A stretch of 64,000 nucleotides of DNA from Artemia franciscana. Its lineage: Eukaryota; Arthropoda; Branchiopoda; Anostraca; Artemiidae. Numbering within the stretch: the stretch's first letter is position 1; every line of letters begins with the position of its first letter. Position numbers and translations under genes: made by a program. The stretch is taken from assembly GCF_032884065.1 (NCBI RefSeq), contig NC_088865.1:50376489-50440488 (forward strand). Direction: 5' to 3'. Shown piece by piece: positions 14,657 to 62,144 of this stretch. The notes under the pieces were generated by a model, which was not told the DNA's origin, made no database searches, and saw only the letters and a list, made by a program, of their open reading frames with translations.

Positions 14657-16421
14657 TCAAACAGTTCGTGGTAACGAACTGTAGTAAGGAGAGATCCGGC
14701 TCAATAGTAACCAAAACTCTAAAAAATTGAATTTTGATATCAATAGCTACATCAAAAGAATCGCATTTTAATGCTGATTTTAAATATATAAGTTTCATCA
14801 AGTTTAGTCTTACCCATCAAAAGTTACGAGCCTGAGAAAATTTGCCTTATTTAGGAAAATAGGGGGAAACGCCCCCTAAAAGTCGTAGGATCTTAACGAA
14901 AATGACACCATCAGATTCAGCGTATCAGAGAACCCTACTGTAGAAGTTTCAAGCTCCTATCTACAAAAATGTGGAATTTTGAATTTTTTGCCAGAAGACA
15001 AATCACGGGTGCGTGTTTATTTGTTTGTTTTTTTTTTTGTTTTTTTTTTTTTTTTTTTTTTTTCCCAGGGGTCATCGTATCGACCACGTGGTCCTAGAAT
15101 GTCGCAAGAGGGCTCATTCTAACGGAAATGAAAAGTTCTAGTGCCCTTTTTAAGTGACCAAAAAAATTGGAGGGCACCTAGGCCCCCTCCCACGCTCATT
15201 TTTTCTCCAAAGTCAACAGATCAAAATTTTGAGATAGCCATTTTGTTCTGCATAGTCAAACACCATAATAACTATGTCTTTGGGAATGACTTACTCCCCC
15301 AAAGTCCCTGGGGGTGGGGCTGCAACTTACAAACTTCGACCAGTGTTTACATATAATAATGGTTATTGGGAAGTGTACATTCGGTTTCAGGGGATTTTTT
15401 TTTGGTCTTGGGGGTGGGGTTGAGGGGAGGGGGCTATGTGGGAGGATCTTTCCATGGAGAAATGTGTCATGGGGGAACAGAAATTCAATGAAAAGGGCGC
15501 AGGATTTTCTAAAATTACTATAAAAAAACAATGAAAAAATAAACATGGAAAAATTTTTTTTCAATTGAAAGTAAAGAGTAGCATTGAAACTTAAAACGAA
15601 CAGAGATTATTACGCATGTGAGGGGTTCTAAAAATACTTTAGCATAAAGAGCGAGGTATTTAGGAGGAGATAAATACCTCGCTCTTTATGCTATAGTATT
15701 TTTAGTAATTTCAACTATTCATTCTACGGCCTTTCTGATTCAGGGGTCATTCTTAAAGAATTGGGACAAAACTTGCGATTTAGTGTAAAGAACGAGGTAT
15801 TAACGAGGGTACAAACCCTCTCATATACATAATAAAAATTAAAGAATATAAAAGTTTGTTACGTAAGATAATTCTTAAGTTACGTATATTTTTTACTAAC
15901 AGAAAAATTCGTTAAAAATAAAAATTTATAGTTGCCTTTTTATGTAACCGAAAAATTGCATGGCAACTAGGCCTCCTTTCCCACCCCTTATTTCTCAAAA
16001 TCGTCTGCTCAAAACTAAGAGAAAGCCATTTAGCCAAAAAAGGAATTAATATGCAAATTTCATTTTAATAATTTATGTGTGGAGAGCCAAAATCAAACAT
16101 GCATTAATTCAAAAACGTTCAGAAATTACATAATAAAACTAGTTTTTTTAACTGAAAGTAAGGAGCGACATTAAAACTTAAAACGAACAGAAATTACTCC
16201 GTATATGAAATGGGTTGTCCCCTCCTCAATCCCTCGCTCTTTACGCTAAAGTTTGACTCTTTGCCACAATTCTGCTTTTTAATACAAACAAAAGCTTTAG
16301 CGTAAAGAGCGAGGGATTGAGGAGGGGACAACCCATTTCATATACGGAGTAATTTCTGTTCGTTTTAAGTTTTAATGTCGCTCCTTACTTTCAGTTAAAA
16401 AAACTAGTTTTTTTTATGTAA
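14657..16421 (+). mobile_element. Hairpin element copy 3, full length, with known empty site
   Basis: 1,765 bp from TCAAACAG to ATGTAA. Flanks are CCTA on the left and TATAACATAG on the right. The uninterrupted paralogue at 10,600/10,601 reads CCTATATAACATAG, so insertion occurred between A and T with no target-site duplication. Body: terminal hairpin, T-tract at 15,025-15,063, first internal hairpin near 15,580-15,840, a second copy of the ~100-nt TTTTTA(A/T)GTAACC...CTAGG module near 15,935, and the giant hairpin to the 3' end. It has no ORF of note. It is the best reference copy in the window. Confidence 0.92.
16118..16421. repeat. Giant terminal hairpin of copy 3
   Basis: Arms about 16,118-16,250 and 16,290-16,421, pairing from TTACATAA at the inner edge to TTATGTAA at the element's last base. 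Arm-specific signatures match within the copy: ATGGGTTG pairs with CAACCCAT, and CCTCAATCC with GGATTGAGG. The loop is about 40 nt. Confidence 0.9.
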
Positions 16422-16710
16422 TATAACATAGCGTCAATCGAGAGTTTTCTTGTCGAAGAACATGAACAACCTTTTGATACAAGGCTAAAAGCATTAATAG
16501 GATACAGATGACATCCAAAAACTTTTCTAAGTTTTTGGTTTCTCCAATTTATATATTTGAAAATAATTTACACAATTCCAAATTAACACCAGACAAATAC
16601 TGAATTATTGTTGAAACAAATGAGAGATGATGTTAATAAATATTTTCAAGTTATCAATTATGACTATAGTGCAAAAAATTTCCTAATGATAACAATTTTA
16701 AAGTAATTAC

Positions 16711-16848
16711 CTAGTTTGCAACTTCCTTCGATCAAGGTTTGTGGGAAAGGACAGGTACATTGGAATCCAACTTCACTGGCAATCACTGTACAACTTTGTC
16801 CCGGTAGACAAGCATCATCAGTACAAAGGCTTGCATCGATTTGTACGA
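16711..16848 (-). CDS. Duplicated EGF-like exon
   Basis: Copy of the EGF exon at 10,889-11,026 within the segmental duplication: 138 nt, phase 1-1, acceptor TTTTTTAG|TC and donor CTAG|GTAATT. All six cysteines are present. One replacement is visible (QIVASL becomes QIDASL). It lies 5' of the SEA exon 12,231-12,448 on the minus strand. It could therefore be spliced as an extra EGF module without changing frame, but no upstream SEA partner was copied with it. Whether it is used is unknown; it may simply be a passenger. Confidence 0.6.
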
Positions 16849-17626
16849 CTAAAAAACAACGAATTAAAATACTTTCGAATAACATCTATTGGAAGTTGAA
16901 TTATATTGGTTATTATATTACGGGTTAAACAGACAAGAAATGTGTTACAACATTTTTACCGATTTACTACATTTTGATATAAAATATTTGCATCATATGC
17001 AATAAGAAGTACAAGAATGTAAGAGCATAAAAGACTGTGTATGTAAGAGTGTGCAAAAAAAAATGGTAAAGTATATGTTAGGTAAGGTAAAGGTAAAGGA
17101 TACGGCATTAGACTTTACAGTCCCTACCGGCGGTGCTGATCTCCGTTTCTTGGCCCTTCAGCCAGGAAGTGCAATGGGGGGTTGGGGGCCAACCATCCTG
17201 TGCTTTGGCACACCCGTCCTGTTTTACTAAATGTTAGACTATATGTTAGACTTAGACCTATATGTTAGACTAAAGAGTAATAACAGAAGTATTATGAGAA
17301 CGACTATTAAAAAAGATTATAATATAGTTAGATGAATTTATTGCCCATCATAACTGTAAGATACAAAGCTGATGGAGTCACGAAGAAAGAAAAGGAAAAT
17401 AAACAAAAAAAAATTACATATACAAACATTACCAAAACAAAGAAGAACTGACAAGAGAAAAATACAATTAAGAACAGTTAAATGTGAGAACTAACACATG
17501 ATCAAGGAAAAAAAAAAATTTCATAGGCGCTTTCACAATTAATCTACCTTTCCTAATTCCTGTACGAGGAGTACAGGAATTATTAAATTACATCCACCAT
17601 GTATTGTAGAAAAACGTACAGAAATG

Positions 17627-18078
17627 ATATGAAAAAAACTTCGTTTCTTAAAGAGTTAAAGAGGCTGCGTCCCAAAGTCGAACCTTAAAACGTACAGGAA
17701 TTAGGAGAGGCAGTAGGGGGGCTGCCGCCCCCCAAACCCCCCGATTTTAAAGACTCTTTTGTACAGGTTTTTTGTTGACCCCCCGCTCTTGGCTTCTGAA
17801 AGGCCCTCTTTTAATTAATGAAAAATTGAAATGAATGAATAATGGAATAACTTCGAAAAATGTTAAACACAAGAGGACAGGAGAACCATTGCACCGAATC
17901 TAGTAATTAGTAACAATGAAGTCCCCCCACAATAAAAAACCTGTACAAAAGTCTTTAAAATGGGGGGGTTTGGGGGGCGGCAGCCCCAACTGCCTCTCCT
18001 AATTCCTGTACGTTTTAAGGTTCGTTTTTGGGACGCAGCCTCTTTAACTCTTTAAGAAAACGAAGTTTTTTTTCATAT
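17627..18078. mobile_element. GC-rich foldback element
   Basis: Inverted repeat arms of about 150 bp (17,627-17,777 and 17,931-18,078) enclose a ~150-nt loop. Arms start ATATGAAAAAAACTTCG, pass GAGGCTGCGTCCCAAA, GTACAGGAATTAGG and CTGCCGCCCCCCAAA, and end at GTACAGGTTTTTT. A separate 11-bp palindrome, AATTCCTGTAC/GTACAGGAATT, sits just left at 17,555-17,581 and repeats part of the arm. This is a second foldback family, unlike the TCAAACAG family. Non-coding. Confidence 0.8.
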
Positions 18079-19060: not shown

Positions 19061-19129
19061 ATTTATATTTTTGTGCTACATTACTGATATTTTGTGATAA
19101 CGATTTATTCAAAAGATAAAAAGATCATA

Positions 19130-19560: not shown

Positions 19561-19564
19561 ACAG

Positions 19565-19830
19565 AGAGGGAAATTATTCTGTATATGAAAGGGGCTGTCC
19601 CCTCCTCAACGCCCCACTCTTTACGCTAAAGTTTGACTCTGTCAAACTTTCTAGTTCTCATTTCACAGTTCTACTTTTCAAAACAATAAGAACTTTAGCG
19701 TAAAGAGCGGAGCGTTGAGGAGGGGACAGCCCCTTTCATATACGAAATAATTTCTGTTCATTTTAAGTTCTAATGTCGCTATCTATTTTCAGTTAAAAAA
19801 AATTTGGTTTTTAAAATTTAATCTCACAAA
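19565..19830. repeat. Giant hairpin (separate copy)
   Basis: Arms about 19,570-19,640 and 19,690-19,760. CTGTATATGAAAGGGGCTG pairs with CAGCCCCTTTCATATACG, and CTCAACGCCCC with GGAGCGTTGAG (one mismatch). The outer right part continues TAATGTCGCT and GTTAAAAAAAATTTGG to about 19,825. The left arm has lost its outermost part. Confidence 0.8.
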
Positions 19831-20412: not shown

Positions 20413-20880
20413 AAAGACTTCCATATGAACTTTTGCAATTTTTGGCAGTAGCGGGTGGAAAATAAGGCTTTTAAAATTTGAAAATTTTATTTGAGTTTTC
20501 TTTCCGTAGGGGAAGGAATTTTGGTAATTGTGTATTATACGCCACTCACTCAAGTTTACGCTTGTGTAAAACTCGAAAACAAATCGGTTTCTCCGTTGGT
20601 TTTTTCCAGCTTAGCACGAGACAAGACAAACACAAGTAACAGAATAGATGAAAATATGAGCACCAATAGATGTTTGAGACACCGAAAGAGATTTAACGAC
20701 AACAGTAGGCACAATTAAATCTACAAAGGGATTGGCAGGCATCACTAGATTAGACAAAATTTCAGAGTGTAATACTTCGTCACATTAATCCTTTGTTTTC
20801 ATCATTTTCTGCTACTGGCAATGCGAGAGTAGTATCTTGGATAGGCACAGGACTTGGCTCTTCTAATTCATTCTTTAGAC

Positions 20881-21318
20881 CTAGTTCTTCTCGAATTGCT
20901 TTTCTGTTACATTTGAGTCCTTCGTAACAGTATTCACAAGACTTGTTTGTTCTGGAGTGGGCTCAGCTGATTCACTATATTGGTAGAGTCTGTCTCCTAA
21001 TTCTGAGTGTCTAATTTTGTTACTGCTGCTTTTATAGGGCGTTCCACTATTTTTTTTTTCACCCGTGATTTTTCCAGTTCTATAGTCTAATACCGCTTCA
21101 TAACTTGTTTCTTCTTCTCTTGAAGCAATACTGCGGCTTTCTGTAGACCGTAAAATGAATTTTCCTTCCCTGAAATTCCATTCTACTTTTTGAGACACCG
21201 AATGTTCCTCATCTGTGGCAGTGTTGATGGTTCCAGCTTTAGAAGGCTGGAGCTCTACTCCAGTAATCTCTGTGTTGCTGAAATGTTTAGGAATAAAAAA
21301 ATTCAAGATTTTATTCAT
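20881..21318 (-). CDS. Unknown ORF, left copy (truncated)
   Basis: 145 codons starting MNKILNFFIPKHFSNTE. It is rich in Ser, Thr and Glu, has no membrane segment or recognised motif, and looks largely disordered. The paralogue at 26,194-26,733 starts almost identically but reads on to 179 residues. Here a missing base after the KQFE codons (near 20,890) shifts the frame and ends the protein early. It follows the kinase-like ORFs by a few bases in the same orientation, so they may have been one transcript. Function unknown. It is adjacent to decayed kinase sequence, so coding status today is doubtful. Confidence 0.45.
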   Translation of the reverse strand: MNKILNFFIPKHFSNTEITGVELQPSKAGTINTATDEEHSVSQKVEWNFREGKFILRSTESRSIASREEETSYEAVLDYRTGKITGEKKNSGTPYKSSSNKIRHSELGDRLYQYSESAEPTPEQTSLVNTVTKDSNVTEKQFEKN

Positions 21319-21332
21319 TTTGATCTGTCGAG

Positions 21333-21560
21333 TTAAGTTTTTCCACTGACTAAAATTCGGCCTTTTGTTTGGATCTTAGTTTTGACCCATGAACAATAAA
21401 TTATTGACCATTGGTGAAATGGAGGATACAGATATTTACTTTCCAAAGCTTTCAAGTCTGTGCTCTCCAAAAATGTTTCTGGTTCAATAAGTAAAAGTTG
21501 TGCCAATATTGCTCCCAAAGTCCATATTGTTTCTAGACCTATTCCACAGAGTCTATTCAT
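21333..21560 (-). pseudogene. Kinase-like C-lobe segment
   Basis: 75 codons beginning MNRLCGIGLETIWTLGAILA. The LETIWTLGAILAQLLL stretch matches the helix F region of protein kinases (the SLG..L.ELL..P pattern), and PPFHQW follows near the end. The start codon overlaps the stop of the ORF at 21,557-21,910 (ATGA). The other frame upstream continues kinase-like sequence (DNKIWEEMNRL), so the two ORFs were probably one protein split by a frameshift near the TCAGGAAGTGACAA stretch. The right arm has the same break, so the break predates the inversion duplication, or an intron or other joining event is involved. Confidence 0.55.
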
Positions 21561-21910
21561 TTCTTCCCAGATTTTATTGTCACTTCCTGAAATGAATCTA
21601 TGCTTAGAGTATTGTATTTTTCTTTTATTCTTTGGAAATGGCTATTCAATTCGGATGGAAGATAAAAATTGTCAAAAGGTAGTGCACCTTTCACTATTTT
21701 CTCTTCCATGTATGTCGAGGTATCAAAATCAATTATAAATACTTTGAAATTGCCATCTATAAGTACATTATCTGTCCTTAGATCTCCATTAGTAATTCTA
21801 CACTCTTCTAATCTCGCAACTATGGATACTATTTGATGGAATATATTAAGTACTTCACATTCACTCAATACTTTTTGTTGGAATATTTTAATGACTTTAC
21901 ATTCACTCAA
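21557..21910 (-). pseudogene. Protein-kinase-like catalytic-loop segment, left copy
   Basis: 117 codons. Residues 39-51, ITNGDLRTDNVLI, match the kinase catalytic loop HxDxxxxN with the catalytic Asp43 and Asn48 present but the His replaced. IIDFDTS at 59-65 sits where the DFG magnesium loop should be, as DFD. N-terminally a 45-nt tandem duplication gives two copies of SEC-[KE]V-[IL]-[KN]-IF. No N-lobe (glycine loop, VAIK lysine) is visible, so an active kinase is not encoded here. This left copy keeps the catalytic loop intact, whereas the right copy is disrupted. Kinase-fold membership is from motif; the family is not recognised. Confidence 0.6.
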
Positions 21911-21957
21911 CCAGCGATCACTTATTTAATCTCGCTTTATCTTTTCTTTGATGGGGA

Positions 21958-22236
21958 TTAAAAAAAAGCAAATTTTTTTTAACTGAAAGTAAGGAGCGAC
22001 ATTAAAACTTAAATCAAACAGAAATTGTTCCGTATATGAATAGGACTGTCCCTTCCTCAACGCCTCGCTACTTACGCTTAACTGTGACTCTTTGTCACAA
22101 CTCTACTTTTTAAAACAATAAAAACTAGCGTAAAGAGCAAGACATTGAAGAGGGATAGCCCCTTTCATATACAAAATAATTTCTGTTCGTTTTAGTTTTA
22201 ATGTCGCTCCCTACTTCCAGTTAAAAAAAACTTGTT
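21958..22236. repeat. Giant hairpin in left arm (diverged arms)
   Basis: Element 3' end, reversed: begins TTAA at 21,958-21,961 (flank A), then GCAAATTTTTTTTAACTGAAAG. Arms to about 22,085 and 22,115-22,236. Unlike younger copies, the two arms differ from each other at several sites (CCTTCCTCAACGCC against a partner reading CCTCTTCAATGTC), so this is an older copy. The family body continues in reverse to about 22,392. Confidence 0.75.
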
Positions 22237-22392
22237 TTTCATTTAATTTCTTAACGTTTTTCAACTAATGCAGGTTTGAATTTGGTTCACCGTACGCCAA
22301 AAGTTAAAACAAAATCTCCAGATCAATTTTGGCAGATTTATTCCGAATATAAAGGGTTGCCCCCTCCTCAATACCGTGCTCTTTACGTTAAA

Positions 22393-23850
22393 GCTGTTAA
22401 CGCTTTAAAGAAGCCTCATATTCTGATTAGACGGCCACCGTGTTTCAAACTTAGTTAATAGTAAAAATTTCGCGTGAAGAGTAATATATTGAGGAGGGGG
22501 GAACCCTTCATATGTGGCATTATTTCAGTTCCGTTTTTTCAAAAAATGCCGGTAAATCTGGCTCACCCTATATGAAATATCTCCCCCCTCACGGAAATCT
22601 CCTTGTGGAAATTTTAATCAGCATAAAGTGCACCCCCTCGTCCGTCCGATTTCCTCCAGACAGCTCCATTCTCGCTTGTAAAACTGCTTGAGGAAAATTC
22701 ATGCTGAAAAATTCTCATTAGCATTCTTTCATTTGAACAAGACTTCAATTGCTAATCTGTCTCTCGATAACTCAAGAAATGCCCCCCCCCCTTTCGTGGA
22801 AATTATTTCCCAGAAAACAAAACACGCCTATAAAAGCCCTTGGATTATTCCACCTGGACATCTCCACACAAGAAATTTGGCAAGGATAATATAAGACAAT
22901 TAAAAAGAATTTCGTATAGTAATTCTGTTAAAACCCCCAGTGTAATATATCCCCTAGATTATTCACCCTCCAGAAATTTCCCTCCTCAAGGAAGATTCTC
23001 CTCATAGAAATCTACCGCACACACCCGCCAAAAGAAATGGCTATGTGCTTCCCAATAACAAATACTGCATGTAAACAATGGGCAAACTTCACAACTTGCA
23101 GCCCTTCCCGGGATTCTGTGGGTCATTCTACGCCTAAAGACATAGTTATTAGATCTTTTGACTGTGTTGAACAAAAGGCTATCTCAAAATTTTGGTCCGG
23201 TGACTTTGGGAAAAGAATGAGAATGGGAGGGGGCCTAGTTGCCTTCCAATTCTTTTGGTCACTTAAAAATGGCACTAGAACTTTTAATTTCAGTTTGAAT
23301 GAGTTCTCTCGAGTTATTCTAGGACCACTGGGTCGACACGATCACCCATAGGAATAAAAAAAAAAACAAACAAATGAACACGCATCCACGAACTTTCTTC
23401 TGGCAAAAAATATAAAATTCCACTTTTTTGCAGGTAAGAGCTTGAAACCTCCTCAGTAGGGTAGGCTACTCTGATACGGTGAGTCTGGTTGTATGATTTT
23501 ATGATGGTCCGATTATTAAGATCTATGACTTTTAGCGTTTTTTCTCCCTTTTTGCGAAATAAGGCAATAAGGCAAATATTATCAGGCACTTTACTTTTGG
23601 TGGGTAAGACTAATATCGATAAAAATCATATATTTGAAATAGGCATAAAAAACCTAATTCTTTTGAAGCATCTTACTTACAGTTCGCTCCTGAAATACTG
23701 AAATAATGACTGAAATAAATGACTGAAATAAAATACTGAACTTACACTGAAATAATGCATTAAGTCCATCTTTTTCTTCACTTAGGCAGCGGTATTGCGC
23801 TGCCAATGATGATAACTGAATGAATTTATAGTCATAATTTAAATGCTTAC
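22393..23850 (-). mobile_element. Spacer of the inverted duplication: diverged reverse hairpin element
   Basis: Lies between the arms. From about 22,980 to 23,640 it is a reverse-oriented, degraded family member (AGGACCACTGGGTCGACACG near 23,320; GAGCTTGAAACCTCC near 23,430; CTCCCTTTTTGCGAAATAAG near 23,545). About 22,480-22,970 is unassigned C-rich/AT-rich sequence. No gene apart from the exon to its right. Confidence 0.6.
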
Positions 23851-24055: not shown

Positions 24056-24454
24056 CTGAAAATTAAAGTAAAATAACGGTTAAACATATGATGAAAGCAG
24101 ATCCGTTTTTCAATGCACGTTTTTAGTCTTAACACTACGCGAGCTTGTTTGAAAACACAAATAGGTGCTTATAAGTTTGTCCTAATGCACTACACAATCT
24201 TTCAAGAACTTTAAGCAATGTTTAGTCAGAGAGCCACTCGCCGAAAATATGACTAGTAGGTGAGAGTCTTTTGCTTTTAGCTTTGAGTCAATCTAAAGCT
24301 TTAACGTAAAGAGCAAGGTATTGAGGAGGGGGCAACCCTTTATATACGGAATAAATCTGCCAAAACTAATCTGGAGATTTTGTTTTAACTTTTGGCGTAC
24401 GGTGAACCGAATTCAAACCTGCATTAGTTGAAAGACGTTAAGAAATTAAATGAA

Positions 24455-24734
24455 AAACAAGTTTTTTTTTAACTGGAAGTAAGGAGCGACATTAAAACTA
24501 AAACGAACAGAAATTATTTTGTATATGAAAGGGGCTATTCCTCTTCAATGTCTTGCTCTTTACGCTAGTTTTTATTGTTATAAAAAGTAGAATTGTGACA
24601 AAGAGTCACAATTTAGCGTGAGTAGCGAGGCGTTGAGGAAGGGACAGTTCTATTCATATACGGAACGATTTCTGTTCGATTTAAGTTTTAATGTCGCTCC
24701 TTACTTTCAGTTAAAAAAAAATTGTTTTTTTTAA
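24455..24734. repeat. Giant hairpin in right arm
   Basis: Counterpart of 21,958-22,236, here forward, ending TTAA at 24,734 followed by T. Arms about 24,470-24,565 and 24,600-24,734. Inner-arm and outer-arm sequences differ in the same way as in the left arm, so the hairpin was already diverged when the locus was duplicated. Confidence 0.75.
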
Positions 24735-24779
24735 TCCCCATCAAAGAACAGATAAAGCGAGATTAAATAAGTGATCGCT

Positions 24780-25401
24780 GGTTGAGTGAATGTGAAGTCA
24801 TTAAAGTATTCCAACAAAAAGTATTGAGTGAATGCGAAGTACTTAATATATTCCATCAAATAGTGTTCATAGTTGCGAGATTAGAAGAGTGTGGAATTAC
24901 TAATGGAGATCTAAAGACAGATCTACTAATCTGTAGATCTGTGTAATCTAAAGGAGATCTACTTATGGATGGCAATTTCAAAGTATTTATAATTGATTTT
25001 GATACCTCGACATACATGGAAGAGAAAATAGTGAAATGTGCAATACCTTTTGACGATTTTTATCTTCCATCCGAATTGAATAGCCATTTCCAAAGAATAA
25101 AAGAAAAATACAATACTCTAAGCATAAATTCATTTCAGAAAGTGACAATAAAATCTGGGAAGAAATGACTAGACTCTGTGGAATAGGTCTAGAAACAATA
25201 TGGACTTTGGGACTAATATTGGCACAACTTTTACTTATTGAACCAGAAACATTTTGGGAGAGCACAGACTTGAAAGCTTTGGTAAGTAAATATCTGTATC
25301 CTCCATTTCACCAATGGTCAATAATTTATTGTTCATGGGTCAAAACTAAGATCCAAACAAAAGGCCGAATACCAAATAAATTTTGGAATATTTGTATTTA
25401 A
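24780..25401 (+). pseudogene. Kinase-like sequence, right copy (catalytic loop destroyed)
   Basis: Counterpart of 21,333-21,910. The catalytic-loop codons at 24,906-24,975 carry a net 33-nt gain relative to the left arm. The gain includes a perfect hairpin, ACAGATCTAC (24,917-24,926) and GTAGATCTGT (24,933-24,942), and an in-frame TAA. Downstream, IIDFDTS and the helix-F-like LETIWTLG are retained (ORFs 24,965-25,168 and 25,165-25,401) with the same frame break between them as in the left arm. Clearly non-functional as a kinase. Confidence 0.75.
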
Positions 25402-26160
25402 GTCTACCGTATATAAGTCTATCGTAAATAATAAAACAGAAATTTCAAAAGAATTGAAAGTAAATTTCAAAAAATTTAATTCCACAAAGAAGACTGAAAA
25501 TTACAAAGCAGAAACTGAGTTCTTCCCAGCACGTAGATCTTGCGTGTACTGTTTTCAACTTGTAGGCTGTTGATGCTTTAAACTAGGTAGGCGGTGGATG
25601 TTTTAAATTCGGTAGGTTGTTGATGTTTTAAAGTAGGTGGAGTGTTTATGTTTTATACTAGGAAGACTGTTGATGTTAAGCTGTTAATATTTTAAACTTG
25701 GTAGGCTGCTGATGTTTCAAAGTAGGTAGGCTGTCGATGTTTTAAACTAGTTAGATCGTTGATGTTTAAACTAAATGGGCTGTTAATATTTTAAACTAGG
25801 TAGGTTGCTGATGTTTTAAACTAGGTATGTCGTTGATGTTTCAAAAACGGGGGGAGGGGGGTAAAACCCCTCTATTTAAGCCCTTTGCCCTCTTCAAGCC
25901 TTGTGACGAGGTAATCTTAAAAAGTGAGAATATCGACCAAGTGGATAGCTTTACATAACTTATTATTAGTAAAATAGTGAGTTAATTAGTGGACTTTGGT
26001 TCATTTAAAGTAGAGAAATCGGGCACTAAGAACCCTAGCTACACCGCTTATAACGTCATAGGATGAGATCAAACATGCATTTAGTTATAGTGTTACGTCA
26101 TTGAAAATTGTTTGTAATGACGTTATTTGAAGATATAACTTGGTTTATTTAGTATAGCTT
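25371..26160. repeat. Right-arm-specific segment with degenerate ~28-bp minisatellite
   Basis: Absent from the left arm. From about 25,555 to 25,845 there are around ten irregular units of the form TGTTGATGTTTTAAACTAGG (approximate unit ~28 bp with substitutions and small indels). The rest (25,846-26,160) is unassigned. Junctions are GCCGAAT on the left and TTAGTCAGTG on the right. It may be an insertion here or a deletion from the left arm. Confidence 0.75.
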
Positions 26161-26193
26161 AGTCAGTGTAAAAACTTAACTCGACAGATCAAA

Positions 26194-26733
26194 ATGAAAA
26201 AAATCTTGAATTTTTTTATCCCTAAACATTTCAGCAACACAGAGATGACTGGAGTAGAGCTCCAGCCTTCTAAAGCTGGAACCATCAACACTGCCACAGA
26301 TGAGGAACATTCGGTGTCTCAAAAAGTAGAATGGAATTACAGGCAAGGAAAATTCATTTTACGGTCTACAGAAAGCCGCAGTATTGCTTCAAGAGAAGAA
26401 GAAACAAGTTATGAAGCGGTATTAGACTATAGAACAGGAATAATCACGGGCGAAAAAACAATTAGTGAAACGCCCTATAAAAGCAGCAGTAAAAAAATTA
26501 GACACTCAAAATTAGAAGACAGACTCTACCAATGTAGTGAATCAGCTGAGAACACTCCAGAACAAACAAGTCTTGTGAATGCTATTACGAAGGACTCAAA
26601 TGTGACAGAAAAGCAATTCGAAGAAGAACCAGGTCTAAAGAATGAATTAGAAGAGCCAAGTCCTGTGCCTATCCAAGATACTACTCTCGCATTGCCAGTA
26701 GTAGAAAATGATGAAAATAAAGGATTAATGTGA
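26194..26733 (+). CDS. Unknown ORF, right copy (179 aa)
   Basis: Starts MKKILNFFIPKHFSNTEMTG and ends PVVENDENKGLM. It is acidic and Ser/Thr/Glu-rich with no hydrophobic segment, so predicted disordered and cytoplasmic or nuclear if made. It is a homologue of 20,881-21,318 with substitutions spread over the whole length. The last ~40 codons fall in the first unit of a 502-bp tandem array, and the same tail (KNELEEPS..PIQDTT) recurs at 27,120 and 27,630. A second short ORF at 26,756-26,977 (NPFVDLIVPTVVVKSLSVSQ) follows in another frame, repeated in the array. No family recognised. The conserved start in both arms suggests it was a real gene before duplication. Confidence 0.45.
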   Translation: MKKILNFFIPKHFSNTEMTGVELQPSKAGTINTATDEEHSVSQKVEWNYRQGKFILRSTESRSIASREEETSYEAVLDYRTGIITGEKTISETPYKSSSKKIRHSKLEDRLYQCSESAENTPEQTSLVNAITKDSNVTEKQFEEEPGLKNELEEPSPVPIQDTTLALPVVENDENKGLM

Positions 26734-27860
26734 CGAGGTATTACACTCTGAAATTTTGTCTAATCTAGTGATGCCTGCCAATCCCTTTGTAGATTTAATT
26801 GTGCCTACTGTTGTCGTTAAATCTCTTTCGGTGTCTCAAACGTCTATTGGTGCTCCAAAAGTATCGATTCTAACAACAAAAAGTACTAACAATGAACAAG
26901 ATGTAGAAGAAGGAAAAGTATCGAATATCGTTGAAAAAATTCCACCTGGAATTAGTGACAAAATAATCAGAGGCTGACATGTTTTTGTTTACACTCAACC
27001 TGACTTCAACTTGAATCAGTGACAAAGAAACCAGACGCCGACATGTTTTGTTGATGCTCAACTTGAGTGTTACAAAGAATTGAGTATTACAAATTGTTCA
27101 ATCGTAACGAAAACACAATTCGAAGAAGGAGCAGGTCTAAAGAATGAATTAGAAGAGCCAAGTCCTGTGCCTATCCAAGATACTACTCATGCATTGCCAG
27201 TAGCAGAAAATGAAGAAAAGGAAGGATTGATGTGACGAAGTATTACATTCTGAAATTTTGTTTAGTCTAGTGATGCCCGCCTATCCCGTTGCAGATTTAA
27301 TTGTACCTACTCTTGTCATTGAATCTCTTCCGGTGTCTCAAACATCTAAAGGTGCTCCATAGGCATAGATTCTAACAACAAAAAGTACTAACGCTGAACA
27401 AGATATAGAAGAAGGGAAAGTATCGAATATCTTTGAGAACGTTACACCTGAAATCAGTGACAAAATGATCAGAGGCCGACATTTTTTAGTTGTCGCTCAA
27501 CCTGAGCTCAACTTGAATCAGCGACAAAGAAACCAGACGTCGACATGTTTTGTTAATGCTGAACTTGAGTGTTACGGAGAATTGAGCATTACAAATTGTT
27601 CAATCGTAACGGAAAAACAATTCGAAGAAGAAACAGGTCTAAAGAATGAACTAGAAGAGCCAAGTTCTATGCCTATCCAAGATACTACTCTTGCATTGCC
27701 AGTAGCAGAAAATGAAGAAAAGGAAGGATTAATGTGACGAAGTATTACACAGAAATTTTGTTTAATCTAGTGATGCACGCCAATCCCGTTGTAGATTTAA
27801 TTGTGCCTACTGTTCTCGTTGAATCTCTTCCGGTGTCTCAAATATCTAATGGTGCTCCAA
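26614..27860 (+). repeat. 502-bp tandem repeat, about 2.5 units
   Basis: CAATTCGAAGAAG-type unit starts occur at 26,614, 27,116 and 27,618, exactly 502 bp apart. Each unit carries the C-terminal codons of the unknown ORF (ELEEPS, PIQDTT, ALPV) and the following NP.VDLIVPT ORF. The first unit is continuous with the full ORF; the third breaks at GGTGCTCCAAAGG near 27,860. An ORF at 27,465-27,737 spans a unit junction. Units differ by scattered substitutions. Confidence 0.9.
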
Positions 27861-31215: not shown

Positions 31216-32230
31216 TCATTTATAGTAACATCTACGTAGTTTACTTAAGTCACTCTTTCTCAGCGGAATGAAGGTCCCAGAAAGATAAAGTACAGAGTGA
31301 TCACAAAAAACTGAATACAAAGAAACCAGAGCCTTTCGATTATACTTAGACCGGTTTGACACAATCTTAAAGTAACCAAATCTGACTTTTATACAAGCTT
31401 CAGATATTGCAGGCTGGCAGAAGGACAAAATATTTTTACAAATTGTTAAACCAAGCCACCGAAAATTTTCAACAGAGGGAACTGATGTATTTTTTATTTG
31501 AAGAGGAGTATTTGGCAAGGTACCGTTAAAACAAATATACTCGCATTTTTCAAGTTTCAGATTTAGCCCAATATCAAGGAAATCCTTTTTAGCCCTTTGA
31601 ACTGTGCGGGATAGGTAAGATGTGCATCTACTGATAAGGAGAATATCATCTGGGTAAGCAATATATGACACATCAGTAAACTCCATAAAAGTCGTCAGAG
31701 AGATCTTGTCAATTATTCCAGCAATACATATCTTTGAAATATAAGGTGACAACACTCCACCTTGACGTACACCACAATGGACTGCAATATTTTCTTGCAT
31801 GAGTTTTAAAATTTTTAAACGCAATTTTGAAGTTTTAAACGCATTTAGTTTTAAACGCAAATGCGTTTAAAACTTTAAGCCATTAGTTTTAAACGCAAGT
31901 GTTCGAGTACTATCGAACGCCTTAGAAATATCTAACGAGTAAAAATTAACTTTCTCATTTCGTTGAAAGGCTTGACGTAGAACATCCGTGAGTACAATGT
32001 GGGCGAGTGCACAACTTATTCCTTGCTTGAACCCAAACTTATTTTCTCCATAAATGCGCTCTCATTGATGATGATGAATTGGGCACTGTAGTAGAAGGTG
32101 ATTGACTGTTTCCACTTGATCACAGCAGCTAAACTTTGGGTTTTCATTACAGAAGCGGGCTAAGTATAATTTGTTCCTACAGGTTCTGATCGCAGCCTGA
32201 ATAGTATTTTACCCTGTTGTCTTTATTACT
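31216..32230 (-). pseudogene. Non-LTR retrotransposon RT fragment with misplaced C-terminal zinc module
   Basis: From 32,060 leftward (minus) the sequence reads FGFKQGISCALAH, then FYSLDISKAFDSTRT (the RT D-motif), GVRQGGVLSP, then AYPDDILL in place of the YADD box, followed by RT-thumb-like sequence to 31,216. This is a LINE reverse transcriptase with frame breaks. GTTTTAAACGCA repeats at 31,815-31,905 interrupt it. Upstream in the same orientation (32,230-32,060) is a zinc-knuckle-like end of another LINE (CRNKLYLARFCNENPKFSCC, then H and C), which normally comes after the RT. Not functional. Clade not assigned. Confidence 0.75.
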
Positions 32231-32289: not shown

Positions 32290-34208
32290 AAAAGTTTTTC
32301 AACTGAAAGTAAGGAGCAGTATTAAAACTTAAAACGAACAGAAATTATTACGCACATGAGGGGTTCACCTCCTCTTAATACCTCGCTCTTTACGCTAAAG
32401 TATTTATAATAATTTCAACTATTTATTCTGTGGCCTTTGTGATTCAGGGATCATTCTTAAGAATTGAAACAAAATTTAAGCTTTAGTGTAAAGAGCGAGG
32501 TATTGACGAGGGGGTAAACCCCCTTATATACGTAATAAAAACATATGAATATAGAAGTTCGTCACGTAAGTTAATTTGTAATTTATGTATATTTTTTACT
32601 AATCAAAACGTTCGTAAAAAACTAAAAGTACTCGTTGTCTTTTTAAGTAACAAAAAAATTGGACGGCAACTAAGCCTCCTCCCCCGCTCTTTTTTTTCTC
32701 AAAATCGTCCAATCAAAACTATGAGAAAGACATTTAGCCCAAAAAAATTTTTTTGTAGAATAAAAAAAATTACTCTGGAAGTTTCAAGCTCTTATCTACA
32801 AAAATGTGAAATTTTGTATTTTTTAATCCATTCCAATTCCAGAAGACAGATCACTGATGCATGTTTATTTGTTTTGTTTTTTTCTTCCTCAAGGGGTGAC
32901 CGTATCGACCCAGTGGTCCTAGAATGTCACGAGAGGTCTCATTCTAACGGAAATTACAAGTTCTAGTGCCCTTTTTAAGTAGCCAAAAAAACTGGAGGGC
33001 ACCTAGGCCTTCTCCCACTCTCATTTTCCCCCAAAGTCACCGGAACAAAGTTCTGGGATAACCGTTTTATTAAGCATAGTCGAAAAACCTCATAACTATG
33101 TCCTTGGGGATGATCTACTCCCCCATAGTCCCCGTGGGATGGGCTTCAATTTATAAACTTTGACTAGTGTTTACATATAGTAATGATTATTGAGAAGTGT
33201 ACAGACGTTTTCAGGGGGATTTTTTGTTGGGAGGAGGATTTGAGGGGAGGGGGATACGTTGGGAGATCTTTCCACGGAGGAATTTGTCATGGAAGAAGAG
33301 AATTTCGAATAAGGGGGCGTAGGATTTTCTAGTGTTATTTAAAAAAAACAATGAAAAAAAAATATGAAAAAGTTTTTCAACTGAAAGCAAGGAGCAGTAT
33401 TAAAACTTAAAGTGAACAAAAATTATTAAGCACATGAGGGCTTCACCTCCTCTTAATACCTCACTCTTTACACTAAATCACTTTTAATAATTTCAACTAT
33501 TTATTCTGTGGCCTATGTGATTCAGGGATCATTCTTAAGAATTGAAACAAAATTTAAGCTTTAGTGTAAAGAGCGAGGTATTGACGAGGGGGCAAGCCCC
33601 CTTATATACGTAATAAAAGTAAATGAATATAGAAGTTCGTCACGTAAGTTAATTGGTAAGTTACGTGAATTTCTTACTAATAAAGACGTTCGTAAAAAAC
33701 TCAAAGTTCTAGTTGTCTTTTTAAGTAACCAATAAATTGGACGGCAACTAGGCCTCCTCCCCCGCTCTTTTTTTTCTCAAAATCGTCCAATCATAACTAT
33801 GAGAAAGCCATTTAGCCAAAAAAAAAATAATAATGTGGAAAATTCGCTTTAATTATTCTTGTTCGGAGAACCAAAATCAAAACATGCATTAATTCAAAAA
33901 CGTTCAGAAATTAATGTAAAAAAAAAGTTTTTTTTTTTAATTTAAGGTAAGGAGCGACATTAAAACTTAAAACGAACAGAAATTATTTCGCATATGAAAG
34001 GCGCTGTTCCCTCCTCAACGGCCCACTCTCTATGCTAAAGTTTTTTACTATTTAAAAAGTATAGTTGAGAGAAAGTCAAACTTTAGCATAAAGAACGGGG
34101 CGTTGAGGAGGGAACAGCTCCTATCATATACGGAGTAATTTCTGTTCGTTTTAAGTTTTAATGTCACTCCTTACTATAAGTTAAAAAAACTTGTTTTTTT
34201 TATATTAA
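32290..34208 (+). mobile_element. Hairpin element copy 6 (composite, 5' end missing)
   Basis: Two successive partial units: 32,290-32,760 begins inside the first internal hairpin; 32,785-34,208 restarts at the GTTTCAAGCTC block and runs to the giant hairpin and TATATTAA|T at 34,208. Hairpin arms (about 33,930-34,060 and 34,078-34,208) match each other, including copy-specific GTTCCCTCC/GGAGGGAAC and ATGCTAAAG/CTTTAGCAT. Confidence 0.85.
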
Positions 34209-55831: not shown

Positions 55832-56467
55832 TTAACTACGTAAAACTTGCAAATATACAACATTCTTCGCTGTCGCATTGTCTGTGCATATAAATAGGTT
55901 GTCAGGTTTACCGACTCTTGAACAGGCAACATATAATTGTCCATGGGAGATCCACCAAGATGGTGGGGGCGCTTTGCACCCCCCAAGCCCCCCCCACGCG
56001 CTTAAGTCGTTATGCACCATATTAGTAACGCGCCATTGTAGTTGTGTACCACCTGTGAATATAGATAGTTCTGATTCAATCTTTGCATACATATCAACGA
56101 TGTATTGGTGAAACAATTGACGGCACTTTAAAATATAATTCCCGTCATTGGGACGAATCATTAGTCTATAGGAATAATAATTCATTGCACTGTATTTCTT
56201 AATCGTTTGTTTGTTATAGGATGGATCTATCAATTTATTATTAAAGTTACCCTGATAAATTTACCCTTGTACTTTGAAAGTAGGCATAAATTGATCTTGA
56301 TTTTTGATTTGGGCACCAAACGACGTCATTTGGAAACATGAGTTATATTTTCGGATGTTTGATAAAAAACGCTTAGATTCTGACGCAGTTCCAATAAGCA
56401 AAGTCTTCAATGGCTCTGGTGGTGCAGCCAGTTTAGGAAGTTTAACTTTTCCTGAGGCGCAGCACAT
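55832..56467 (-). pseudogene. Helitron Rep/helicase remnant with internal deletion
   Basis: Minus strand, two frames. 56,467-56,261: CCASGKVKLPKLAAPPEPLK, then FLSNIRKYNSCFQMTSFGAQ and FMPTFKVQG. 56,233-55,832: NYYSYRLMIRPNDGNYILKC, then LFHQYIVDMYAKIESE. These are the conserved start of the Helitron-like N-terminal (Rep) domain. About 40 residues later the same frame jumps to GQLYVACSRVGKPDNLFI and AKNVVYLQVL, the extreme C-terminus of the Pif1-family helicase. The Rep HUH/Tyr sites and almost the whole helicase are absent. A frameshift or stop separates the two frames. The bridging DNA (TGGTACACAACTACAATGG on the coding strand) recurs at about 57,000-57,050, so it is Helitron end or spacer sequence. 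Dead, internally deleted copy. Confidence 0.85.
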
Positions 56468-56958: not shown

Positions 56959-57139
56959 TAGCTCCTGGTGTCACCCACCCCCAAAGCCTCCCCGCACGTG
57001 TAAGTCGTTACGCGCCATATTAGTTATGCACCATTGTAGTTGTGTCCCTGTGTCCCACCTGTGACTATAGATAGATATACATATGTTTTTAACTACGTAA
57101 TATACAACATTCTTCGCTCTCCCAATGTCTTTGAATATA
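56570..57139. mobile_element. Helitron flanking repeats: 108-bp tandem, (AT)n, second partial copy
   Basis: GAACACAAGG starts at 56,601 and 56,709 mark two ~108-bp units (ATATATAGAA, GTGCCATGCTGGGGCCC). CCCAGCTAG at about 56,795 abuts (TA)n 56,797-56,957, which ends TACTAGCT. From 56,958 to 57,139 there is a second partial Helitron copy (GTTACGCGCCATATTAG; TTTTTAACTACGTA; CAACATTCTTCGCTCT) matching 55,828-56,040, cut by element copy 7. Confidence 0.75.
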
Positions 57140-58881
57140 TTAAATAAAAAAAAATAATTTTTTTTAGCTGAAAGTAAGGAGCAACATTAAAACTTAAAGT
57201 GAACAGAAATTAATCCGTATATGAAATGGGTTGTCCCCTCCGCAATCCCTCGCTCTTTACGCTAAAGCTTTTAATTGTTTTAAAAAGTAGAATTGTGGAA
57301 AAGAGTCAAACTTTTGCGTAAAGAACGAGGGATTGTGGAGGGGACAACCCATTTCATATACGGAGTAATTTCTGTTCGTTTTAAGTTTTAATGTCGCTCC
57401 TTACTTTCAGCTAAAAAAAATAGTTTTTTTTATTTAAGTTCTGAATGTTTTTGAATTAATGCATGTTTGGTTTTTGCTTTCCACACATAAATTATTAAAT
57501 TGAAATTTGTACATTAATTCTTTTTTGGCTAAATGGCTATCTCTTAGTTTTGATCAGACGATTTTGAGAAATAAGGGGTGGAGAAGGAGGCCTAGTTGCC
57601 CTCCAATTTTTCGGTTACTTAAAAAGGCAACTAGAACTTTTAATTTTTAACGAACGTTTTTATTAGTAAAAAATATACGTAACTTAAGAATTAACTTACG
57701 TAACAAACTTTCATAACCTTATATTTTTATTATGTATACGAGGGGGTTTGTACCCTCGTTAATACCTCGCTCTTTATACTAAATCGTAAGTTTTGTCCCA
57801 ATTCTTTAAGAATGACCCCTGAATCAGAAAGGCCGTAGAATAAATAGTTGAAATTACTAAAAATATTTTAGCATAAAGAGCGAGGTGTTTATGTCCTCCT
57901 AAATACCTCGCTCTTTATGCTAAAGTATTATTAGAACCCCTCATATTCGTAATAATATCTGTTCGTTTTAAGTTTCAGTGCTACTCCTTCCTTTCATTTG
58001 AAAAAACGTTTTCGTGTTTATTTTTCATTGTTTTCTTATAGTAATGCTAGAAAATCCTGCACCCTTTTCATTGAATTTTTCTTCCCCCATGACAGATTCC
58101 TCCAAGGAAAGATCCTCCAACATAGCCCCCTATCCTCAGCCCCACCCCCAAACAAAATAAAATCCCCCTGAAAACGTCTGTACACTTCCCAATAACCATT
58201 ACTATATGTAAACACTGGTCAAAGTTATTAACTTGCAGCCCCTCCCCCAGGGATCGTTGGGGAGTAAGTCATCCCCAAAGACATAGTTCTTATGGTTTTA
58301 GACTATGCTGAACAAAATGGCTATCTCAAAATTTTGATCCGTTGACTTTGGGAAAAAAATGAGCGTGGGAGGGGGCCTAGATGCCCTCCAATTTTTTTGG
58401 TCACTTAAAAAGGGCACTAGAACTTTTCATTTCCGTTATAATGAGTCCTCTTGCGACATTCTAGGACCACTTGGTCGATACGATGTCCCCTGAAAAAAAA
58501 AAAAACAAAAAAAACAAATAAACACGCACCCGTGATTTGTCTTCTGGCAAAAAATACAAAATTCCACATTTTTGTAGATAGGAGCTTGAAACTTCTACAA
58601 TAGGGTTCTCTGATACACTGAATCCGATGGTGTCATTTTCGCTAAGATTCTACGACTTTTAGAGGGTGTTTTCCCCTATTTTCTTAAATAAGGCAAATTT
58701 TCTCAGGCTCGTTACTTTTGATGGGTAAGACTAAACTTGATGAAACTTATATATTTAAAATCAGCATTAAAATGCGATTCTTTTGATGTAGCTATTGATA
58801 TCAAAATTCAATTTTTTAGAGATTTGGTTACTATTGAGCCGGGTCGCTCCTTACTACAGTTCGTTACCACGAACTGTTTCA
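57140..58881 (-). mobile_element. Hairpin element copy 7, full length, reversed
   Basis: 1,742 bp. The 3' end (TTAAAT in plus, flank A) is at 57,140; the 5' end with hairpin CAGTTCGTTACCACGAACTG is at 58,858-58,877, starting TG rather than TC. Giant hairpin 57,155-57,430, with CCGCAATCC facing GGATTGTGG. The first internal hairpin near 57,860-57,960 has a short fold of ACCTCGCTCTTTATGCTAAAG with its complement. Non-coding. Inserted into the Helitron remnant. Confidence 0.9.
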
Positions 58882-58900
58882 AATACATTGTCAGGAATAC

Positions 58901-59000
58901 NNNNNNNNNNNNNNNNNNNNNNNNNNNNNNNNNNNNNNNNNNNNNNNNNNNNNNNNNNNNNNNNNNNNNNNNNNNNNNNNNNNNNNNNNNNNNNNNNNNN
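58901..59000. other. Assembly gap (100 N)
   Basis: Exactly 100 N, the usual placeholder for a gap of unknown size. The left side is a reversed element ending plus 19 bases; the right side starts in the middle of a forward element. Confidence 0.99.
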
Positions 59001-60042
59001 CCCCGCAATCCCCGTCGGAGGGGTTGCAAGTTACACACTTTGACCTGTGTTTACATATAGTAATGGTTACTGGTAAGTTTACGGACGTTTTCAGGGGGAT
59101 TTTTTGGTTGGGGGGCAGAGTTGAGGTAGGGGGGTACGGGAGAGAATCTTTCCATGGAAAAACCTCTCATGGGGGAAGAGACTTTCAATGAAGGGGGCGC
59201 AGGATTTTCTAGCATTATATAAAAAAAACAACGAAAAAACAAATATGAAAAGTTTTTTCTACTGAAAGTGAGGAGCAGCATTAAAACTTAAAACGAGCAG
59301 ACATTATTGCACATATGAGGGGTTTACCTCCTCGTAATACCTCGCTCTTTACGCTAAAGTATTTTTAGTAATTTCAACCAATTATTCTACGGCCTTTGTA
59401 ATTCAAGGTTCATTCTTATGGAATAGGGACAAAATTTAAGCTTTAGTGTCAAGAGCGAGGTATCGACGAGGGGTGAACCCCCTCATATACGCAATAAAAA
59501 CATACGAATATAGAAGCTCGTTACGTAACTTAATTCATAAATTACGTATAATTTTTACTAATGAAAATGTCCGTAAAAAATTAAACGTTCTAGTTGCCTC
59601 TTAAGTACTCAAAAAATTGGAGGGCAACTAGGCTTCCTCCCTCGCTCCTTTTTCCTCAAAATCTTCCGATTAAAACTATGAGAAAGCCATTTAGGAAAAA
59701 AAATTAATATGCATATTTCGTTTTAATTATTTATATGGGGAGAGCCAAGATCAAACATGGATTAATTAAAAAACGTTCAGAAATTAAATAAAAAAAAGTT
59801 TTTTTTTAGCTGAAAGTAAGGAGCGACATTAAAACTTTTCCTCTTCAACGCCCCGCTCTTTACACTAAAGTTTTTTTTTACTGTTTTAAGAAGTAGAATT
59901 AAGAGAAAGAATCAAACTTTAGCGTAAAGAGCGGGGCGTTGAAGAGGAAAAGCCCTTTCATATACGGAGTAATTTCTGTTCGTTTTAAGTTTTAGTGTCG
60001 CTCCTTACTTTCATTTAAAAAAAAACTTGTTTTTTTATTTAA
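59001..60042 (+). mobile_element. Hairpin element copy 9 (5' part lost in gap)
   Basis: Forward element from the CCCCGCAATCCCCG block to ATTTAA|T at 60,042. It is nearly identical to 2,946-3,465 over its first ~485 bp. The giant hairpin is at about 59,775-60,042; its first arm has lost about 70 nt (from AAACTT straight to TTCCTCTTCAACG). The remaining arm parts still match: CCTCTTCAACG with CGTTGAAGAGG. Confidence 0.88.
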
Positions 60043-60393
60043 TGCTGAACTAAAACCAAAAGACTATTTGCATGAAGGTTATCACCAGTAATTTCTCGGG
60101 AACGGCTTAGGGTATCAAGTTGAATCGTTCAGGTATTGTTGAGGGATATGTTGAGCTAATCAAAAGGCACTAAGTGCACATTACCCTTACTACTGTTGAG
60201 GGGTATATTGTACCCGATCAAAAGACACTAAATGCATGCAAGTGGTCAAAAGGGCCAACAGCAATATCTCGGGACTGGTAGGGATTAGAATATGCCTTCT
60301 TAGGCTGTGGGTCTTGCCCCCAAAGGGGTCGTGAGAAATTTTAATTTTAAATATTTAAATCGCCGATTCTATAATATTTACTTTAGATGTGTA
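60043..60393. other. No gene recognised; short internal repeats
   Basis: Spacer between two elements. Two loosely repeated stretches (TATTGTTGAGGGATATGTTGA and ACTGTTGAGGGGTATATTG; ATCAAAAGGCACTAAGTGCA and ATCAAAAGACACTAAATGCA) lie about 70 bp apart. Confidence 0.6.
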
Positions 60394-62144
60394 TTAAACA
60401 AAAAAAAAACTAATTTTTTTAGCTGAAAGTAAGGAGCGACATCAAAACTTAAAACGAACAGAAATTACTCCGTATATGAAATGAGTTGTCCCCTCCGCAA
60501 TCCCTCGCTCTTTACGCTAAAGCTTTAAATTGTTTTAAAAAGTAGAATTGTGGCAGAGTCAAACTTTAGCGTAAAGAGCGAGGGATTGCGGAGGGGACAA
60601 CTCATTTCATATACGGAGTAATTTCTGTTCGTTTTAAGTTTTAATGTCGCTCCTTACTTTCAGCTAAAAAAATTAGTTTTTTTTTTGTTTAATTTTTGAA
60701 CGTTTTTGAATTAATGCATGTTTGGTTTTGGCTCTCCGCACATAAACTATTAAAATGAAATTTGTATATTAATTCTTTTTTTGGCTAAATGGCTTTCTCT
60801 TAGTTTTGATCAGACGATTTTGAGAAATAAGGGGTGGAGAAGGAGGCCTAGTTGCCCTCCAATTTTTCGGTTACTTAAAAAGGCAACTAGATTTTTTAAT
60901 TTTTAACGAACGTTTTTATTAGTAAAAAATATACGTAACTTAAGAATTAACTTACGTAACAAACTTTCATAACCTTATATTTTTATTATGTATACGAGGG
61001 GGTTTGTACCCTCGTTAATACCTCGCTCTTTGCACTAAATCGTAAGTTTTGTCCCAATTCTTTAAGAATGACCCCTGAATCAGAAAGGCCTAGAATAACT
61101 AGTTGAAATTACTAAAAATACTTTAGCATAAAGAGCAAGGTATTTATCTCCTCCTAAATACCTCGCTCTTTATGCTAAAGTATTTTTAGAACCCCTCATA
61201 TGCGTAATAATCTCTGTTCGTTTTAAGTTTCAATGCTACTTCTTCCTTTCATTTGAAAAAACGTTTTCATGTTTATTTTTCATTGTTTTCTTATAGTAAT
61301 GCTAGAGAATCCTGCGCCCTTGTCATTGAATTTTTCTTTCCCTATGACAGATTCCTCCAAGGAAAGATCCTCCAACATAGCCCCCTCTCCTCAGCCCCAC
61401 CCCCAAACAAAATAAAATCCCCCTGAAAACGTCTGTACACTTCCCAATAACCATTACTATATGCAAACAATGGTCAAAGTTTATAACTTGCAGCCCCTCC
61501 CCCAGGGATTGTGGGGGAGTAAGTCATCCCCAAAGACATAGTTATTATGGTTTTCGACTATGTTGAACAAAATGGCTATCTCAAAATTTTGATCCGTTGA
61601 CTTTGGGAAAAAAATGAGCGTGGGAGGGGGCCTAGATGCCCTCCAATTTTTTTGGTCACTTAAAAAGGGCACTAGAACTTTTCATTTCCGTTAGAATGAG
61701 CCCTCTTGCGACATTATAGGACCACTTGGTCGATACGATGACCCCTGGGGAAAAGAAAAAAAAACCAAAAAAACAAACAAATAAACACGCACCCGTGATT
61801 TGTCTTCTGGCAAAAAATACAAAATTCCACATTTTTGTAGATAGGAGCTTGAAACTTCTACAGTATGGTTCTCTGATACCCTGAATCTGATGGTGTCATT
61901 TTCGTTAAGATCCTACGACTTTTAGGGGGTGTTTCCCCCTATTTTCCTAAATAAGGCAAATTTTCTCAGGCTCGTAACTTTTGATGGGTAATACTAATCT
62001 TGATGAAACTTATATATTTAAAATCAACATTAAAATGCGATTCTTTTGATGTAGCTATTGATATCAAAATTCAATTTTTTAGAGTTTTGGTTACTATTGA
62101 GCCGGGTCGCTCCTTACTACAGTTCGTTACCACGAACTGTTTGA
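60394..62144 (-). mobile_element. Hairpin element copy 8, full length, reversed
   Basis: 1,751 bp. Ends TTAAAC (plus) at 60,394 with flank A, and CTGTTTGA at 62,144 with flank T, so read forward it is A|TCAAACAG...GTTTAA|T. Giant hairpin about 60,394-60,700; arms share copy-specific ATGAGTTG/CAACTCAT and CCGCAATCC/GGATTGCGG. The inner arm edge also reads TGTTTAAT like the outer end. Non-coding. Confidence 0.92.

Follow-up and report, generated by a model that had tools for sequence, protein, structure and literature searches.

Concerted arms and recurrent loop inversion in the giant hairpin of a Helitron2-like transposon of Artemia franciscana

A 64-kb stretch of the Artemia franciscana assembly (positions 50,376,489–50,440,488 of its contig), referred to here as the window, carries copies of a mobile element that ends in a giant hairpin. 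Judged by its sequence, the element is a non-autonomous, non-coding, Helitron2-like (HINE-like) transposon of ~1.76 kb, with the giant hairpin opposite its TC end. The published assembly, from a female, comprises 1.27 Gb in 21 chromosomes, with Helitrons making up 8.81% (PMC11492255); the genome-wide counts given below cover 1,270,528,402 bases of a slightly different version. As reconstructed from the sampled copies, the two arms of the hairpin change together along lineages, the loop between them inverts recurrently, the palindromes sometimes overrun their ends, and in older copies the two arms have diverged.

Intact copies in the window share one layout: a left end, TCAAACAGTTCGTGGTAACGAACTGT, containing a short palindrome, a non-coding body of ~1.45 kb, and the giant hairpin of ~300 nucleotides (nt), built of an inner arm next to the body, a loop of ~37 nt and an outer arm, each arm being ~130 nt long. 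Hairpins are present at both termini, as is typical of Helitron2/Helentrons, the left one formed by the palindrome ACAGTTCGT/ACGAACTGT. An asymmetric terminal inverted repeat, recognized by eye with no significance statistic, comprises GTAAGGAGCGAC close to the left end and, ~40 nt short of the right end, GTCGCTCCTTAC. Nearly every readable copy ends on the right in ATTTAAT, ATGTAAT or GTTTAAT, and the CTRR 3′ terminus of canonical Helitrons is absent from the readable copies. At its start, the inner arm repeats the outer terminus in reverse-complement form; therefore, a terminus-like site also exists at the inner junction. Within copies B, G and I (Table 1), there is no open reading frame of 150 or more amino acids (aa) and no Rep/helicase coding sequence. 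Genome-wide, the Helitron_like_N domain (PF14214) gave 7,436 first-look candidates, of which 150 were scored and matched, with open frames of up to 2,091 aa, and it gave no match in 14 control genomes. A fragment of the window at 55835–56260 (−) also matches PF14214, with an E-value of 2e-5 that falls under the curated cut-off. The exact arm pattern had no match in IMG/VR and GTDB contigs, collections that may omit records of this same genome.

Further copies came from a non-random sample (the best matches of a single query, hairpins of odd length and the places listed first on one contig). With a composite family that carries a left extension set aside, T precedes the C of the left end in 97% of copies and is itself preceded by A in 72% or by T in 21% (n = 39). 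Repeats from flank to flank are rare among 31 copies, with 2 of 31 at 2 nt, none at 3 nt and 1 of 31 at 4 nt. The element shows A-T or T-T insertion without target duplication, as do members of the Helitron superfamily; copy L048, which sits inside a sibling element, shows no evident target duplication when compared with the empty site. In copy L071, the outer terminus abuts the left end of the next copy (ATTTAA/TCAAACAG), a single example of a head-to-tail junction. Head-to-tail junctions are the expected product of circles or of rolling-circle replication. The downstream flank of insertion sites has a pattern of its own (68 copies), with G in 1% at +1 and purines in 82–90% at +9 to +11. The composite subfamily, with its common left extension, accounts for 21 of 61 readable left ends and consists of flop copies, in the sense of loop orientation defined below. 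In six members that were read further (L069, L070, L072, L074, L076 and L085), the extension contains ~300 nt of different sequence as well as, upstream, a portion of another body. Most copies of this subfamily have a mutated short palindrome, whereas L076 keeps it intact. As to polarity, Helitron2 anatomy would place the giant hairpin at the 3′ end, and the composite subfamily extends past the other end instead.

These traits place the element beside two described groups, in the parts of the literature cited here. Helitron2, Helentrons and HINEs/DINEs have asymmetric terminal inverted repeats and a hairpin at each terminus; some Helitron2/Helentrons start with TC (TCAG in FoHeli1/2), and their 3′ inverted repeat lies tens of nt upstream of the 3′ end (PMC5148889). 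The Artemia element resembles them in its hairpins at both termini, its asymmetric terminal inverted repeat and its TC start, but differs from their short hairpins in having a ~300-nt hairpin with ~130-nt arms, arm conversion and loop inversion. Canonical Helitrons, including Helraiser, are described as having a 5′-TC, A-T insertion without target duplication, a 3′ hairpin terminator and head-to-tail circles (PMC4778049, PMC5876387). The TC start, the insertion mode and the head-to-tail junction in L071 are shared with them; the CTRR end and 19-bp palindrome described for them are replaced here by TTTAA or a similar end and by the ~130-nt arms.

A preliminary description of the window had claimed that copy-specific changes occur in both arms of the same hairpin. 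The arms are inverted and real, their identity being 98% over 123 nt at 16.1 kb, 92% over 124 nt at 57.1 kb, 98% over 133 nt at 60.4 kb, 85% over 127 nt at 33.9 kb and 96% over 75 nt at 5.2 kb, and the motifs it named were found in place and mirrored in the partner arm. Several of these changes, though mirrored, are markers of subfamilies and not of single copies, such as ATGGGTTG, present at both 16.2 and 57.2 kb. Mirrored motifs also occur at 59.8 and 19.6 kb, in hairpins whose arms are no longer complete: the inner arm has a large deletion at 59.8 kb, and ~64 nt still pair at 19.6 kb. Finally, the hairpins at 22.0 and 24.5 kb, listed as two older copies, lie in the two halves of an inverted segmental duplication (93–96% identical; Table 1) and stem from a single old insertion that was later duplicated as an inverted repeat, so we rejected them as independent evidence.

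Table 1. Copies of the element and associated features in the window (flip and flop are the two orientations of the hairpin loop)
Feature	Position	Strand	Details
Full-length copy B	14657–16422	+	Left end TCAAACAG with short palindrome, body, giant hairpin
Hairpin of copy B	16125–16422	+	Inner arm 16125–16254; loop 16255–16291, flip; outer arm 16292–16422
Full-length copy I	60393–62144	−	Outer arm 60393–60525; loop 60526–60560, flip; inner arm 60561–60693; left end 62144
Nearly full-length copy G	57138–58879	−	Arms 57140–57270 and 57308–57437; flip
Copy A	3790–5406	+	Flop loop; arms 5120–5242 and 5280–5406
Insert at inner junction of copy A	5029–5119	+	5081–5119 is an exact inverted copy of 5407–5445
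Host flank of copy A	5407–5445	+	Present inverted within the element
Older copy F	32771–34209	+	Flop loop; arms 33910–34043 and 34078–34209
Copy H	59001–60050	+	Left start at N run; flop loop; inner arm partly deleted
Hairpin remnant C	19570–19754	+	Pairing arms 19570–19633 and 19691–19754; flip-type if weak body match orients correctly
Old hairpin D	21957–22247	−	Flop; in duplication half 20658–22395
Old hairpin E	24445–24735	+	Flop; in duplication half 24297–26855; one insertion event with D
Diverged copy J	62352–64000	+	Reaches toward window edge; flip-type loop

Loop inversion, a feature absent from the preliminary description, is visible within the window itself. When all copies are read in the orientation of their bodies, the loop has one form (flip) at 16.1, 57.1, 60.4 and 63.8 kb, and at 19.6 kb if the weak body match there is trusted, and the reverse complement of that form (flop) at 5.2, 22.0, 24.5, 33.9 and 59.8 kb. 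Exact patterns anchored at the body junction identified at least 3,943 flip and at least 1,475 flop hairpins genome-wide, with none for the backward control; these counts are lower bounds because exact patterns overlook subfamilies such as that of copy B. The inversions were mapped on a quick maximum-likelihood tree of the body, rooted at its midpoint, of 88 copies with at least 700 nt of body. The tree rows were drawn from 129 junction matches, 32 of which were set aside by hand as second hairpin views or spurious, with copy A added, giving 98 rows, 88 of them used. On this tree (39 flip and 49 flop copies), the loop changed orientation at least 10 times, 8 of these changes being forced by starred branches; shuffled orientation labels required 29.2 changes on average, and none of 500 shuffles was as low as the observed number. 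Orientation is therefore clustered on the tree, and inversion is recurrent but occasional.

The arms of one copy resemble each other more than they resemble the arms of other copies, as the preliminary description had predicted. In a first comparison, which kept 69 of 80 parsed hairpins, the mean arm difference was 0.0515 within a copy versus 0.085–0.093 between copies. A second comparison, restricted to core columns, kept 75 of the 88 copies and dropped 13 with a hairpin score below 120; the arm difference was 0.0334 within a copy versus 0.0622–0.0634 between copies, a value reached in none of 10,000 permutations. Split by subfamily, the flop family marked by G at core site 74 (n = 32) gave 0.0192, against a shuffled mean of 0.0220 and minimum of 0.0195, and the remaining copies (n = 43) gave 0.0440 versus 0.0814, neither value being matched in 10,000 permutations. 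For alleles found in a single inner arm and a single outer arm, the two arms belonged to one copy in 7 cases and to different copies in 9.

Mapped onto the body tree, the identical change occurred in both arms on the same branch 52 times, versus 4.57 expected and a maximum of 13 in 500 simulations. As a control, the inner arm was compared with a direct arm-like repeat of the body (70 copies, 79 sites), giving 0 such changes versus 1.5 expected. Under pair-state parsimony, mirrored changes number 17 on internal and 37 on terminal branches, single-arm changes 3 and 184, corrective changes 8 and 7, and double non-mirrored changes 3 and 4, respectively; one further change, on a terminal branch, leads from one mismatch to another. 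The total of 54 mirrored changes (37 transitions and 17 transversions) compares with an average of 2.9 and a maximum of 8 when outer arms were shuffled 60 times. A 1-nt deletion is also mirrored, in L042 and L061. Core site 79 shows a conversion at a half-way stage: a T-to-A change in the inner arm only, placed by parsimony at the base of a 35-tip clade, left a mismatch that persists in many tips. Later changes restored the match, giving A in both arms on three internal branches and T in both on one. Mismatched arms can therefore be transposed, and, because this mismatch was inherited and then matched both ways, arm correction, as traced on the tree, is real, bidirectional and non-obligatory, that is, it does not take place at every transposition. 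Inspected by eye, L013 has a chimeric hairpin, with inner and outer arms of two subfamilies and parts of both loop orientations.

In some copies, the palindrome extends beyond the hairpin. Beyond the outer terminus of L086, 23 nt exactly invert the end of the body, after which host DNA begins; no other overrun longer than 5 nt was found among 75 hairpin views checked (L086 counted twice). Genome-wide, the body end flanks a single hairpin on both sides at 81 places, and a body motif lies ~90 nt out on both sides of the hairpin at 25 places, with none in either control; L086 is the one case among them with readable flanks. Copy A, at 5.1 kb, shows the opposite arrangement: 39 nt of its host flank are repeated, inverted, at the inner junction (Table 1), and the first 12 nt of this inverted flank recur at 5030 and 5059 within the insert. 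Between them, L086 and copy A preserve traces of copying in both directions, from inner to outer arm and the reverse. An overlong gap range had yielded 28 odd-length hairpins, kept for their junction insertions; neither inspection by eye nor alignment of the arms in 16 of them (the other 12 lie on the opposite strand) revealed another example resembling copy A, with no systematic check of inserts.

The timing of correction was addressed by regressing arm mismatch on the terminal branch length of the body for 72 of the 75 copies, with core site 79 excluded. The slope is 0.97 ± 0.09 and the intercept 0.0038 ± 0.0033 (r = 0.81, n = 72), in line with the dependence on body age that the preliminary description had anticipated. 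The near-zero intercept indicates that copies seem to be born with nearly equal arms. Mean mismatch was 0.0077 for terminal branches below 0.01 (n = 27) and 0.0608 for those of 0.03 or more (n = 21), and core arms were identical in 13 of the 27 young copies. With 184 of the 187 single-arm changes on terminal branches and mismatch growing with age, correction would appear largely to stop after insertion, a conclusion that rests on a correlation, the slope of which permits some later correction. The 37 mirrored changes on terminal branches suggest that part of those branches predates insertion.

The mechanism is probably fold-back or strand-switch DNA synthesis at the hairpin. Template switching at inverted repeats and quasipalindromes has been described, on phylogenies, to homogenize arms, invert spacers and extend stems (PMC8604942, PMC8794818), and all three signatures were found here; it is on the joint presence of arm homogenization, loop inversion and overrun that we base this reading. 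During replication of the element, a nascent or freed end would fold back on, or jump to, the partner arm, use it as a template and then return. A switch inside an arm would convert that arm, a switch across the loop would leave the loop inverted, and an asymmetric switch would copy adjacent body or flank. Since resident copies show little correction or none, such switching is probably linked to replication of the element itself, presumably of the rolling-circle type; we infer the tie to transposition. The earlier suggestion that one arm is copied from the other is thus favored over selection on a fold, given loop inversion, the overruns and the 17 transversions among the 54 mirrored changes.

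Several observations weigh against fold-back synthesis as the full account. A slope of 2 is expected if terminal branches were wholly post-insertion, and the observed slope is ~1: either part of terminal-branch evolution took place before insertion or resident copies are still corrected somewhat. Identical core arms persist in 3 of 21 old copies (branch of 0.03 or more). On internal branches, the 17 mirrored changes compare with 47.5 expected for the pair as one locus evolving at the body rate; the arms therefore evolve more slowly than the body and may be under constraint. Two measures give weaker evidence that arms are concerted at all: the difference between own and foreign arms is small inside the tight flop family (n = 32), and in only 17 of 69 copies did no other arm lie closer to the inner arm than its own partner, a low score because many copies of a subfamily have identical arms and later mutations are unmatched. 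Loop orientation clusters on the tree, inversion being only occasional. Overrun sequence was read for only two copies; among the 81 symmetric places, some join arms that appear to come from different subfamilies and could be recombinants.

A doubtful, though possible, alternative is a parvovirus-like rolling hairpin, in which the 3′ end of an excised strand folds back and serves as the primer from which the body is copied, and nicking at the inner junction leads to transfer and flipping of the hairpin. Terminal hairpins of parvoviruses such as adeno-associated virus (AAV) are described in flip and flop forms, with an annealed 3′ end that primes copying and concatemers of alternating orientation (PMC8195378). 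The Artemia element resembles AAV in having a terminal hairpin in two orientations, a likeness from which we claim no relationship; in the virus, the rolling-hairpin model predicts inversion at each round, whereas the element inverts occasionally. The coexistence of flip and flop loops, the terminus-like site at the inner junction and the inverted body on both sides of the hairpin, as fold-back priming without resolution predicts, would all suit such a scheme. However, the flips are too clustered for one per cycle, the overrun of copy A duplicates flank and not body, and hairpin transfer by itself would, we reason, swap mismatches rather than remove them. It is conceivable, at low probability, that a rolling-circle transposon has acquired a parvovirus-like rolling-hairpin step, with a giant hairpin that would self-prime, transfer, flip and proofread against itself; if so, Helitron and parvoviral replication would combine within one mobile element.

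It is unlikely that the host alone produced the pattern, through gene conversion or crossing-over between resident arms, or through cruciform extrusion and repair, independently of transposition. Mirrored changes and loop inversion would result from these processes as well, and they would sit comfortably with an age slope of ~1 rather than 2, but arm mismatch increases with age (from 0.0077 to 0.0608, as given above), and crossing-over by itself does not generate the inverted duplicates, 23 nt long from the body and 39 nt long from the host flank. Selection on folded RNA or DNA, with the arms kept complementary by compensatory mutation, is very improbable. In its favor, the hairpin is retained in both orientations across the sampled subfamilies, and a Helitron hairpin has been reported to act as a terminator (PMC4778049); against it stand the transversions among the mirrored changes, the mirrored 1-nt deletion and the single mismatch in a ~130-nt stem that lasted through many copies, and selection on a fold would neither invert loops nor copy flanks. 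Least credible of all is that assembly or short-read polishing made the arms of a copy alike: Pilon was used to polish the published assembly (PMC11492255), and reads of one arm could map to the other, but the 17 mirrored changes on internal branches are, by their position, common to two or more copies, 187 unmatched single-arm changes remain, and loop orientation tracks the body tree.

Fold-back synthesis at the hairpin, the preferred reading, belongs to a class of mechanism that is already known, from template switching at inverted repeats and from parvoviral flip and flop; its recurrence in a ~300-nt transposon end is new. In the cited reports, the arms and loops at which templates switch are short and belong to yeast genes or rRNA, unlike the ~130-nt arms and ~37-nt loop seen here in thousands of matches of one mobile element. 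Galileo, a Foldback-like element, is described as having long terminal inverted repeats that are alike within a copy and differ by several percent between copies (PMC2775673), but these are the opposite ends of a P-superfamily element, and here both arms belong to one hairpin at one end. Among the papers listed in searches of the open-access literature, no title or opening line of an abstract described loop inversion or concerted arms for the hairpin of a Helitron. With more than 5,000 copies matched by pattern, this ~300-nt hairpin provides a natural record of arm conversion, loop inversion and overrun, in which the rates, direction and tract lengths of fold-back synthesis become measurable in nature, and it gives a handle on how Helitron-like elements replicate their ends. 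It also carries a warning that matched changes in hairpin arms do not, alone, prove selection on folded RNA.

Two further features of the window were recorded. A separate inverted repeat at 17632–18071 has arms of 88 nt that are 91% complementary and spaced 264 nt apart, and a reverse transcriptase fragment lies at 31219–31866 (−), matching RVT_1 with an E-value of 5.7e-16.

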